DNA from: Prochlorococcus sp. AG-388-E21
GTDB lineage: Bacteria > Cyanobacteriota > Cyanobacteriia > PCC-6307 > Cyanobiaceae
NCBI GenBank assembly: GCA_003279855.1
Contig: QCGO01000001.1
Span: 186,001-250,000, forward strand
Direction: 5' to 3'
Length of the DNA stretch: 64,000 bases
Below the pieces are notes generated by a model, which worked only from the letters and a program-made list of their open reading frames with translations, was not told where the DNA came from and did not search any database. Position numbers and translations under genes: made by a program. Shown here one piece after another: positions 39,840-60,395 of the stretch. Each line of letters begins with the position of its first letter. The stretch's first letter is position 1.

Positions 39840-41039
39840 ATGACGCCTGAAAGGCTTGGCTTACTTTGGGGTATAACTGTTTTTGCAGGGGCATGCGCAC
39901 GTTTAATTTCTTCTGTCTCTGGATTTCCAAGTGTAGTAATTTTATTAATTTCTGGATTATTCATTGGACGCTCAGGGTTCGGGCTTGTTGAGCCACTTGA
40001 TCTTGGACAGGGACTTGAGACTATAGTTGGACTTTTAGTTTGTTTAGTTTTATTTGAAGGGGGGTTAAATTTAAAATTACCTGAAGGAAATATTAGAAAT
40101 ACTGTCTTAAGAATTTCGTTAATAAGATTATTTATTTCATTATCAGCAGGAATATTTATAGCTCATTGGCTAGCAGGACTATCATGGCCAGTAGCTGGAG
40201 TTTATAGTGCGATAGTTCTTGCAACTGGACCGACAGTAGTTTCACCCTTAGTTGACCAAATAAAATTAGTATCTCCACTATCAGAGGTCCTAAAAGCTGA
40301 AGGATTAGTTCTTGAACCTATCGGAGCCGTTCTCGCTTTATTGTTATTAGAACTAATATTGGGAGATTTACATGGAATTAATGAGGTATTTATTGCCTTA
40401 ATGCAGAGATTAGGTGGAGGGGTTTTGATAGGTATTAGTTCTGGATGGTTGCTGTCTGAAATTTTAAAGAAAATAAAAAACGATGCATCATTTGGAATTG
40501 AGCTTCAGGTTACATTAGGATTTATTTTTCTTGTATATGGAATTTGTGAATATATTTTGCCTGAATCAGGGTTACCCGCTTCTGTTGCTGCAGGATTTAT
40601 TGTAGGCAAAAGAGAAATTATTGATAAAGAAAGATTAGATAATTTGATTGGAGAATTAGCTCAACTATCCATAACAGTTCTTTTCCCTCTTCTGGCATCT
40701 GATGTCTCTTGGGGAGAATTAAGTCCATTAGGTTGGGGGGGGGTTATCTGCGTATTAATGTTGATGATAATTGTACGTCCGATTTCCATATCACTGGCAA
40801 CTATGGGAGGAGAATTAGATGTAAAACAAAGAGTGTTTTTATCGTGGCTAGCGCCAAGGGGGATAGTTACTGCCGCTGTCGCCTCTCTTTTTTCAATAAG
40901 ACTTGAGCAGGCAGGAGTCCTTGGTGCGGGTCGTCTCCAAGGCTTGGTATTTCTAACGATATTGATGACAGTCGGTATTCAAGGTCTGACGGCAAGACCT
41001 CTAGCAAATTTTCTAAATTTAATTGACAAGGAAATATAG
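39840..41039 (+). CDS. Cation/proton antiporter (CPA1/NhaP type)
   Basis: 399 residues, about 12 membrane segments. Conserved parts are LLVCLVLFEGGLNLKL near 66-81, IVLATGPTVVSPLVDQI near 127-143, and LPASVAAGFIVGKRE near 246-260. The typical ATDP motif of Na+/H+ exchangers is ATGP here, so ion specificity and mechanism may differ. The WLAPRGIVTAAVASLFSI block near 335 is typical of the NhaP group. It probably exports Na+ or K+ in exchange for H+. Its TAG abuts the convergent gltX stop. Confidence 0.87.
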   Translation: MTPERLGLLWGITVFAGACARLISSVSGFPSVVILLISGLFIGRSGFGLVEPLDLGQGLETIVGLLVCLVLFEGGLNLKLPEGNIRNTVLRISLIRLFISLSAGIFIAHWLAGLSWPVAGVYSAIVLATGPTVVSPLVDQIKLVSPLSEVLKAEGLVLEPIGAVLALLLLELILGDLHGINEVFIALMQRLGGGVLIGISSGWLLSEILKKIKNDASFGIELQVTLGFIFLVYGICEYILPESGLPASVAAGFIVGKREIIDKERLDNLIGELAQLSITVLFPLLASDVSWGELSPLGWGGVICVLMLMIIVRPISISLATMGGELDVKQRVFLSWLAPRGIVTAAVASLFSIRLEQAGVLGAGRLQGLVFLTILMTVGIQGLTARPLANFLNLIDKEI

Positions 41040-54694: not shown

Positions 54695-56265
54695 TTCTTT
54701 TTTTCTAAGGTTGGAATTAATGTACTTGATGCAATTAGTCCCAAGACTGTTATAAAGAATGCAGGTAATAAGGCTTCTGCCATTCGCTCATCTCCAGCAT
54801 ATTGATATATCCTTACAGATAAGGTATCAAAGTCGAAAGGTCTAAGAATAAATGTAATTGGTAATTCCTTAATGGTGTCTACAAATACTAAAAGTGATCC
54901 AACAAAGATTGGACCTTTTAATAGTGGAATATGTATCTTCTTGATAACACCAAGCCAATTAGAGCCAAGTCCTTTTGCAGCCTCATCAAGGGTTGGAGAT
55001 ATTCTTTCAAACCCAGAATCAAGAGAACCTTTTGAAATAGTTAAAAATCGAACTACGTAACCCCAGATCAGGAGGAATATAGCAATAAAATAGAACTTTG
55101 AATTGGAAATAGTTATTAATGATATAGCTAATACAGTTCCTGGGATTGCATATCCAATACCTGCCGGGAATGTTATTAATCTCATAAGTAAATTCTTATT
55201 CTCACGATTAGATAGCGTTAATATTAAAGAGAAAATTAATGCTACTAATGCAGTAATTATTCCAAGGCTAATAGTTCTAAAAGTAAGAGATATTAATTCT
55301 GTTGTGAATCCTTTTTTTAACTGATCAATATTTAATAGAAACCAAGAAAATGGAATTCCAATTGCAAATAATGGTGGTAATGAAGTAAATAAATATGCTA
55401 AGTGAGACCTATTTCCTTTTAACTTAAATCCCAGAGAACTTAATGAAGCAGGATTTTCACTCCAACGCTTTGTCTTCCTTCTTGAAAGTTTTTCAAGCAA
55501 AATTAAAGTAAAAACTATTATTAAGGCAACTAATGATAATCCAATTGCGCTTTTAGGATTTCCTTCAATGATCCAATTTTCAGCGATACTTTTAGAAATA
55601 CTTGGAATATTTAACAACTCAACTGTCCCTAAATCATTCATAACTTCCATACACATAAGGCTGATTCCAGTTATTAATGCTGGGAAAGCCATTGGAAGAG
55701 CAATTTTAAAAAAGCTGCCCCATGGTCCAACCCCTAATCCTCTACTAGCATTAATTTGATTAACTCCAAATTTATTAAAACTTTCGTTAGCAAGTAAGAA
55801 AACATAAGGGTAAGTAGTAATTGAGAGTATAAGAACTCCCCACCATAAACCAGTTATTTGGTAACCTAAAATACTTCCTAAATCCTGTAATAATGCAGTT
55901 AATAAATATGCTGGAGTTGCTAGTGGAATTAGTTGAAAAATACGGAGAGTTTTCCTTAATCTAAATTCGCAATTGGATAGTACCCATCCATTTAAGGTCC
56001 CTAAACCACCTCCTAAAAAACTAGTAAGTATTAAAAGTTTTAATGTGCCAAATATTTCTTTTCTTCCAGAAATACCTAAAGAAAAATTGCCACCTAAAAT
56101 AAAATCTATTCCTTCAATTAAGAAACTAAAAATCGGAATTATAAGTATAAATGCAACTATTAAAGAAGCAATATTTAAAGGCTTTAAATCTGATAATAAA
56201 TTCTTTGTTTGTTTAATAAAAATTTTTCTAATAATAAATAGTACTTTATTATGCTTCTTCTCAAT
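54691..56265 (-). CDS. Iron(III)-type ABC transporter permease (FutB/ThiP class), noncanonical start
   Basis: An open frame runs from a TAG at 56313-56311 to the stop at 54691. It has no ATG, GTG or TTG before the ATG at 55692. A start at ATT 56265, just past the CobW stop, gives 524 residues, the usual size for two-domain iron permeases of this group. Two permease cores are visible: ASRGLGVGPWGSFFKIALP then MAFPALITG, and DEAAKGLGSNWLGVIKKIHIPLLKG near the end. Both are EAA loops, so the N-terminal half is genuine. Starting at 55692 would discard about 190 residues including the first core. The substrate is inferred from family to be iron(III). Confidence 0.8.
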   Translation of the reverse strand: MEKKHNKVLFIIRKIFIKQTKNLLSDLKPLNIASLIVAFILIIPIFSFLIEGIDFILGGNFSLGISGRKEIFGTLKLLILTSFLGGGLGTLNGWVLSNCEFRLRKTLRIFQLIPLATPAYLLTALLQDLGSILGYQITGLWWGVLILSITTYPYVFLLANESFNKFGVNQINASRGLGVGPWGSFFKIALPMAFPALITGISLMCMEVMNDLGTVELLNIPSISKSIAENWIIEGNPKSAIGLSLVALIIVFTLILLEKLSRRKTKRWSENPASLSSLGFKLKGNRSHLAYLFTSLPPLFAIGIPFSWFLLNIDQLKKGFTTELISLTFRTISLGIITALVALIFSLILTLSNRENKNLLMRLITFPAGIGYAIPGTVLAISLITISNSKFYFIAIFLLIWGYVVRFLTISKGSLDSGFERISPTLDEAAKGLGSNWLGVIKKIHIPLLKGPIFVGSLLVFVDTIKELPITFILRPFDFDTLSVRIYQYAGDERMAEALLPAFFITVLGLIASSTLIPTLEKKN

Positions 56266-57301
56266 AATTAAATCTACAAGAATTAAGCTGATTCTTAATA
56301 GTTTGATGATCTAAATCTTTTCCTATTAGAACAATTTTATTTGATTTTTCATTTTCCCATTCACAATCATCAAGAGAAAAACGTTTACCAGATAAATGAA
56401 AAATATGTTTTCTTTCACTTTCCATAAACCATAAAATCCCTTTAGCTCTAAATACATTTTGTGAGATTTGATTATCTAAGAAGTTTTGAAACTTCCTTAA
56501 AGAAAATGGATCATTCGTCTCAAAAGAAATAGATGTAAATCCCTCTATGTTATTTATAGAATCATGAGAATGGGAAGAGTGATCATGAGAATGGGAAGAG
56601 TGATCATGCGAATGGGAAGATTGATCATGGGAATGGGAAGAGTGATCATGCGAATCTTGATTACTAATAATGTTCTCTTTAAATTGAAAAGTATCTGTTT
56701 CGAAAAGTCCAACACTCATTATTGTTTGCAAACCAACTTCACTATTAATCGATCTCAAAATTCTTGGTTCTTTTTTTATACCATTAATGTGTTGTTCTAT
56801 CTTTTTCAAATGTGTATCAGTTACTAAATCACATTTATTTAATAGTAAAATATCACCATATAAAATTTGTGAGTAGGCAACACTAGAGTTTTTTAAATCA
56901 AAATCAAAGTTATCTGCATCAATAATAGTAATAATTGAATCTAATCTTACTTTTTCTCTAAGGTCACCCCCTGCAAAAGTCATTGCTACAGGTAGTGGAT
57001 CTGCGAGTCCAGTCGTTTCAACAATTAAATAATCTATTTTTTCAGGTCTATCTAATATCTTAGAAACAGTGCTTAATAATTCTCCATTTATTGTGCAACA
57101 AATGCATCCGTTATTTAATTCGATCATATCTTCAGCAGTTTTTATAATTAATTCATTATCAATACCTATCTCTCCAAATTCATTAACTAAAACAGCCGTT
57201 TTAATTCCAACTTGATTTTTTAAAATGTGATTTAAAAGTGTAGTTTTACCTGAACCCAAGAATCCGCTAATAATAGTAATAGGGAGTAAATTTTCTGCCA
57301 T
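56261..57301 (-). CDS. CobW-family GTPase with histidine-rich linker
   Basis: 346 residues. The G domain (about 1-190) has P-loop GFLGSGKT (13-20), the metal site C66-I-C68-C69, VETTGLADPLP near 94-104 and NKCD at 155-158. Residues 216-247 form a linker with 12 His in the pattern SSHSHDH, encoded by repeats of 24 bases. The CobW_C domain follows. The family delivers Zn2+ or other metals to client proteins. It overlaps the iron-type permease by a few bases, so metal transport and chaperoning may be linked here. Confidence 0.9.
   Translation of the reverse strand: MAENLLPITIISGFLGSGKTTLLNHILKNQVGIKTAVLVNEFGEIGIDNELIIKTAEDMIELNNGCICCTINGELLSTVSKILDRPEKIDYLIVETTGLADPLPVAMTFAGGDLREKVRLDSIITIIDADNFDFDLKNSSVAYSQILYGDILLLNKCDLVTDTHLKKIEQHINGIKKEPRILRSINSEVGLQTIMSVGLFETDTFQFKENIISNQDSHDHSSHSHDQSSHSHDHSSHSHDHSSHSHDSINNIEGFTSISFETNDPFSLRKFQNFLDNQISQNVFRAKGILWFMESERKHIFHLSGKRFSLDDCEWENEKSNKIVLIGKDLDHQTIKNQLNSCRFNY
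56561..56656 (-). repeat. Tandem 24-base repeats encoding the CobW His-rich linker
   Basis: About four 24-base units encode SHDHSSHS-like octads in the CobW protein. The units differ at single positions only (atcatgagaatgggaagagtg-like). The unit length keeps the frame, so copy number can vary without disrupting the gene. Confidence 0.9.
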
Positions 57302-59744: not shown

Positions 59745-59806
59745 AAATTTACGTTTTAGAATTTGATTGAGTGTGAGGATGTAGTATAAATAAAAATAAT
59801 CTTTTG

Positions 59807-60395
59807 ATGGCAAACCTTAATCAACCCCCAAGCAGAGTTACCCCAAATTTATTACATATTTTAGATGCTTTTACAGACAGTACAAAATCAATCGTTAATA
59901 CAATTGTTGAGTTAAATTCTAATACTATAAATAAGTATGAGTTAATTACTGAAACGGGACATTTGAAACTTGATAGAGTTGGTTATTCATCACTCGCATA
60001 CCCTTTTGCTTATGGATGTATCCCAAGAACTTGGGATGAGGATGGTGATCCTCTTGATATTGAAATAGTTGGTGTTACAGAACCACTAGTTCCAGGTTCA
60101 ATCGTAGAGTCAAGGATAATTGGAGTGATGAAATTTGATGATGGAGGAGAAGTTGATGACAAAGTAATTGCTGTCCTATCAGATGATAAGAGAATGGATC
60201 ATATTCATACTTTTGAGGATCTTGGGGAACATTGGCTTAATGAGACCAAGTATTATTGGGAACATTATAAAGATCTAAAAAAAACCAGGGACATGTACTG
60301 TTAATGGCTTTTATGGAATTGAAGAAGCTGTAAAAGTAATTCAAGATTGTGAATCTAGATACCAAAAAGAAATTGAACCTAAATTAGTTGATTAA
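59807..60395 (+). CDS. ppa: Inorganic pyrophosphatase, reading frame broken at an 8-A run
   Basis: From ATG 59807 the frame reads 166 codons-worth and stops at 60302-60304, ending LKKTRDMYC. Removing one A from the run at 60277-60284 continues as LKKPGTCTVNGFYGIEEAVKV to a TAA at 60393-60395, giving 195 residues, the normal cyanobacterial length. Active-site residues lie before the break: ESRIIGVMKFDDGGEVDDKVIAV holds the catalytic Asp, and HYKDL the C-terminal Tyr-Lys. The truncated form thus keeps the catalytic set but loses 36 C-terminal residues. PPi hydrolysis is normally essential. A sequencing error, a real mutation, or slippage are all possible. Confidence 0.9.

Follow-up and report, generated by a model that had tools for sequence, protein, structure and literature searches.

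The locus described here raises the question of whether the main inorganic pyrophosphatase gene (ppa) of a Prochlorococcus genome is truly broken, or whether the break exists only in its assembled sequence. The window, by which we mean the whole stretch of 64,000 nucleotides analysed, corresponds to positions 186001–250000 of contig C1 in the assembly of the source genome (G000), which comprises 1,661,104 bases in 17 contigs. The features that bear on the question are the following, in window coordinates.

59807–60304, + strand: ppa, main family I inorganic pyrophosphatase gene, with a broken frame and 165 residues as assembled (PF00719, 141.5 bits, profile positions 2–128 of 153)
60277–60284, + strand: eight consecutive As, against seven in most relatives (sequence, genus comparison)
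60285–60395, + strand: 36 out-of-frame codons plus stop encoding the family C-terminus, residues 160–195 of intact homologues (translation, homologue comparison)
59771–59779, + strand: GTGTGAGGA, candidate pairing site for the sRNAs Yfr1/Yfr10

The broken frame and the second pyrophosphatase gene

Read directly from the sequence, the run AAAAAAAA consists of eight As. The frame opened by the ATG at 59807 passes through it and ends in TGT TAA (stop at 60302–60304), giving the terminus LKKTRDMYC. The original prediction had described this break and this stop, and both were confirmed; its size for the short product has to be corrected to 165 residues, since the 166 codons that it gave include the stop. 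Past the run, 36 codons in another frame encode PGTCTVNGFYGIEEAVKVIQDCESRYQKEIEPKLVD and close with a stop at 60393–60395. With one A fewer, this tail becomes the C-terminus of a product of 195 residues, as had been proposed. In the restored frame, the residues past the break are identical to those that G033, a close relative assembled in a single contig, has in its intact protein, with one silent change in 112 nucleotides, and one amino acid differs from G144. Compared with either genome, the eighth A is an isolated +1, and a compensating indel is absent.

The assignment to family I also held, given that the PF00719 score of the product as assembled exceeds the cut-off of 23.5 bits. This product shares the sequence family and the order of catalytic residues with other Ppa proteins, but it is 36 residues short of the family C-terminus, and its profile coverage ends at position 128, whereas the G033 homologue with the same tail covers positions 2–153. 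The part of the domain that is missing is encoded past the run, in another frame. The catalytic residues of the family, which we take to be E20, K29, E31, R43, Y51, Y55, D65, D67, D70, D97, D102, K104, Y141 and K142 (E. coli numbering), were read by eye in G000 ppa and in the 195-residue homologue of a relative aligned to chain 3i98_A. The set is complete, and all of its members lie 5' of the break, in agreement with the earlier claim, so that a partly active truncated enzyme is conceivable. Two AlphaFold models had a mean pLDDT of 37.2 and 35.3 and were unusable. The gene is flanked upstream by an M32 carboxypeptidase gene and downstream, on the other strand, by hemC and then a sigma-70 factor gene.

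The original prediction also reasoned that pyrophosphate hydrolysis is normally essential and that a real break would therefore be hard to tolerate. This reasoning has to take account of a second family I gene (PF00719), which lies outside the window, 15 kb downstream of ppa (G000:C1:261109–261657), and encodes 182 residues; a second match of this type is found in most genus genomes that hold ppa. The paralogue belongs to the same Pfam family, but it shares about 31–41% identity with Ppa in the aligned region and, in the three strains read, departs from the above catalytic list at two positions: D67 is replaced by A in G000 and G023 and by S in G033, and Y141 is replaced by S in all three. Judging from these substitutions, the paralogue is probably catalytically impaired, and for this reason the essentiality argument survives. 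Searches for a membrane H+-pyrophosphatase (PF03030) and for a family II pyrophosphatase (DHHA2, PF02833) found no match, which leaves ppa as the one pyrophosphatase found that is predicted to be competent. Since the paralogue lacks two of the listed catalytic residues, a real and unrescued break of ppa should be costly, and with ppa as the sole predicted competent enzyme found, a true break would be selected against. Publications on a second cyanobacterial pyrophosphatase were absent from the matches listed in our literature search and from the accessible part of PMC7332688, and the accessible part of PMC5009743 contains neither 'Prochlorococcus' nor 'pyrophosphatase'. The literature search on truncated pyrophosphatases and on homopolymer indels in Prochlorococcus returned nothing of use.

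Run length across the genus and accuracy of the assembly

A comparison of run length among relatives had been suggested as a check, and it placed G000 apart. The motif form with eight As is confined to G000 among the 266 genus genomes, and the in-frame form occurs in 212 others, as counted with a fixed degenerate pattern that misses intact genes with other residues at this place. Seven As at codon 157 are present in 63 of 82 distinct ppa genes and absent from 19. Runs of seven or more occur in these 82 genes at two places only, namely this one and a T7 at codon 167 (47 genes). Both the A8 and the A7 motif patterns were absent from the viral contigs searched.

At the protein level, matches were obtained in 240 of the 266 genomes; 20 of them yielded a weak, paralogue-level match only (E of roughly 1e-20 to 1e-23), and the main gene is thus present in the remaining 220. 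An open frame of 195 codons or more, measured from stop to stop, was found in 216 of the 220; for the 149 genomes that were among the matches listed for the short-form query, completeness of the tail is judged from this frame length alone, as the query was the short form; a second search, with a full-length protein, covered the other 71. The remaining four are G000 and G047, in which the gene is broken, and G048 and G122, in which it is cut by contig ends. All 109 loci examined, which represent the 82 distinct genes, reach the usual end without a stop, although this sample is biased towards intact genes since its loci were among the best-scoring. Two genomes, G120 and G160 (94 and 99% complete), contain a paralogue-level match only. 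We rejected this as a sign that ppa is dispensable: the neighbouring hemC was not found there either, so it is probable that the region is missing from these assemblies and that the gene has not been lost.

The second broken gene differs from the first in the position of its defect. In G047 (C19:59400–60700), the ppa A run is in frame, T8 replaces T7 at codon 167 and the frame ends after VNGFFWDRRSC, a form present in 1 of the 266 genomes; the G047 assembly is 65% complete and comprises about 300 contigs. The only two genomes found with a broken ppa thus each carry a +1 at one of the two long-run places of the gene. This pattern fits a slippage-type process in the sequencer, in an amplification step or in the cell alike, and it is predicted equally by replication slippage and by sequencing slippage.

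The behaviour of other homopolymers in the same assembly is informative on this point. Within the window, we took 68 of 92 ORFs as likely genes; they contain 35 A/T runs of eight or more, including that of ppa, and 64 of exactly seven. Frame-shifting indels in these ORFs numbered 20 relative to G033 and 16 relative to G144; only that at the ppa run is both isolated and seen in the two comparisons. By eye, the others form compensating clusters, sum to multiples of three or lie at ORF ends, and one further isolated indel, at 56238 in a small ORF of 113 codons, is seen relative to G144 only. A general proneness of the assembly to homopolymer errors was therefore rejected as a blanket cause, given that the other 34 runs of eight or more and the 64 runs of seven show no isolated break in both comparisons.

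The comparison was extended to 464 kb of contig C1, where 421 of 449 G033 ORFs (non-overlapping, 90 residues or more) were recovered, 408 of which matched across 93% of the ORF length; this test is insensitive to breaks within 7% of ORF length from an ORF end. Thirteen ORFs were matched in part and, among the nine listed (best identity above 60%), four match in two frames: ppa, an ORF with a likely upstream extension at a T7 versus T6 run, and two others. In one of these, at about C1:404500–404760, three small indels leave different frames near the start of a 249-codon G033 ORF. In the other, near C1:425800, G000 reads as G144 and G072 do, which makes G033 the likely exception. The reverse comparison gave 9 partial cases among 424 matched G000 ORFs, and two of the four listed match G033 in two frames. 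Overall, ppa is the only clear isolated, homopolymer-associated frame break private to G000 found in these 464 kb. These comparisons show that homopolymers are on the whole soundly assembled in G000 and that, whatever its cause, the break in ppa is singular in the part examined. Consensus errors at runs of eight As are uncommon with Illumina sequencing. This technology was used for comparable isolate genomes (PMC5764940 and the accessible part of PMC4421930).

Two other places in the window deserve mention in their own right. At 40735–40743, a run of nine Gs, in an AT-rich genome, lies inside an Na+/H+ exchanger gene; among five relatives, three show eight Gs followed by an A there, at equal length and in frame, and the other two have interrupted runs. 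At 56261–57301, on the minus strand, a gene for a CobW-family GTPase carries a His-rich repeat of the SHSHDHS type and is 21 bases shorter in G000 than in G033.

Error or young mutation

The original prediction had offered three possibilities, namely that the sequence is wrong, that the truncated product works, or that the run is corrected by slippage or by a +1 ribosomal shift. The first is now the best supported, with A7 as the usual state and A8 in G000 alone, and correction by slippage is weakly supported. With moderate confidence, we attribute the eighth A to a one-base homopolymer-length error in the draft assembly, the chromosome most likely carrying seven. The run would then be as in the relatives, the error would have fallen on the longest run of the gene and the cell would make an ordinary family I pyrophosphatase of 195 residues; we infer that the mistake lies in the sequence rather than in the cell. 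The comparisons above point in this direction, in that the eighth A is private to G000, the tail still codes for a normal protein and seven As are usual, but a real mutation would look identical in an assembly. Our main reasons for preferring an error are that selection would act against a true break and that an error is neutral, and the main reason for caution about it is how clean the assembly is elsewhere in the part examined.

An unlikely, if still plausible, alternative is that the eighth A is real but very young, having arisen by replication slippage from A7 to A8 in the sequenced strain or cell, which would then make the 165-residue enzyme with reduced or no activity and possibly some full-length protein. 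The usual state and the position of the run would suit such an event, as A7 is the longest run in the gene, and so would the location of the listed catalytic residues before the break; moreover, with no other clear homopolymer break in the 464 kb, a generic error process is not obvious. Such an allele would have to persist in a genus in which nearly all genomes with ppa keep the full frame, alongside a paralogue that looks catalytically impaired and with the two other pyrophosphatase families tested unmatched, all of which speaks against it.

Possible slippage or recoding at the run

We consider it rather improbable that the eighth A is real and is often corrected, either by a polymerase that drops one A or adds two, or by a ribosome that shifts by +1 on AAA AAA ACC, which would yield a mixture of 165- and 195-residue proteins. 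Runs were counted on the sense strands of 409 G000 ORFs with near full-length G033 counterparts (369 kb) and compared with 200 within-gene synonymous shuffles. Runs of eight As were seen 121 times, that of ppa included, against 113.2 expected (sd 8.3), and runs of nine 34 times against 37.1. Runs of ten were seen 5 times against 10.4 expected (sd 2.8), and runs of 11 or longer were not seen at all, against 7.6 expected. The avoidance of A runs is thus clear from about ten, and A8 and A9 are not depleted. For T runs, 87, 22 and 6 were seen at lengths of seven, eight and nine against 100, 29.6 and 8.9 expected (ratios of 0.87, 0.74 and 0.67), and none of ten or longer against 6.4, so that T runs are mildly low from seven on, and a weak effect at the shorter lengths is conceivable. 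Given that eight As are not avoided while runs of ten or more are, slippage at the ppa run is probably weak.

Examples of corrected indels come from other bacteria. In the poly(A) tracts of endosymbionts, frame-shifting indels are reportedly bypassed by slippage, an observation attributed to Tamas and dated 2008. In E. coli, deletion of an A or insertion of A or AA in an 8A run of M.HaeIII was bypassed to give a functional protein, albeit from a plasmid, the copy number of which may increase bypass, according to the accessible part of PMC3812077. The accessible part of PMC1088944, by Baranov and colleagues, reports, for many bacteria, selection at a run length of about nine and suggests productive slippage at eight As for IS elements of Deinococcus and Nostoc. 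The case of ppa resembles the M.HaeIII and endosymbiont cases in having one A too many in an A run of a needed gene; unlike them, ppa is known here from its sequence alone, its run length is not avoided on the sense strands of G000, and its correction would take one A lost or two gained.

In formal terms, rescue of ppa needs the loss of one A, the gain of two or a +1 shift of the ribosome. As far as the accessible part of PMC5574713 goes, homopolymer transcription errors in E. coli and Buchnera are mostly insertions, with fewer deletions, although homopolymer deletions in Buchnera also increase with run length, and a restored frame was not detected in any case. An insertion bias of this kind would run in the wrong direction for a one-step rescue of ppa. 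Downstream of the run (60285–60384), the RNA folds no better than shuffled sequences (z 0.27), so a stimulatory structure free of pseudoknots was not found there, and the inverted repeats near the run are short or imperfect. Low-level rescue by slippage is possible, but efficient rescue is without support.

We regard as very unlikely the combined reading in which the eighth A is real and fixed in the strain, which would live on the 165-residue form plus small amounts of a full-length form produced by slippage, with the sole other family I pyrophosphatase lacking catalytic residues, G047 as a second case and the location of the long runs after the last catalytic residue as the source of the gene's tolerance. 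The sequence A AAA AAA is a canonical −1 slippery form. It stands in frame in the same 63 genes, and a −1 shift in the relatives would, as read from their sequences, often end in a similar short tail; we nevertheless practically discount a conserved programmed site that makes a regulated short form across the genus, as the A8 form is unconserved, A7 is missing from the other 19 distinct genes, the synonymous conservation of codons 157–159 (0.89, 0.84 and 0.95) is unexceptional, given that 23 of the 78 sites at which at least four synonymous codons are available reach 0.84, and a stimulatory structure was not found downstream.

In its present state, the locus calls for caution, as one extra homopolymer base makes a core gene resemble a pseudogene, and one could take a paralogue whose active site is damaged for a backup. 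A real break would mean that the main pyrophosphatase gene can be frame-broken in a marine cyanobacterium that is free-living and streamlined, and the strain would offer a test of whether weak slippage, or else a shortened enzyme, is enough.

The leader of ppa carries a further element. The motif GTGTGAGGA precedes the ppa start by 36 bases and is exact in 42 of 90 loci with this start, a count in which loci overlap and repeat. It resembles what we take to be the complement of the Yfr1/Yfr10 core. For strain MED4, ppa is reported as a target of Yfr1/Yfr10 in the accessible part of PMC6778093, and pairing of these sRNAs with the G000 ppa leader is possible.
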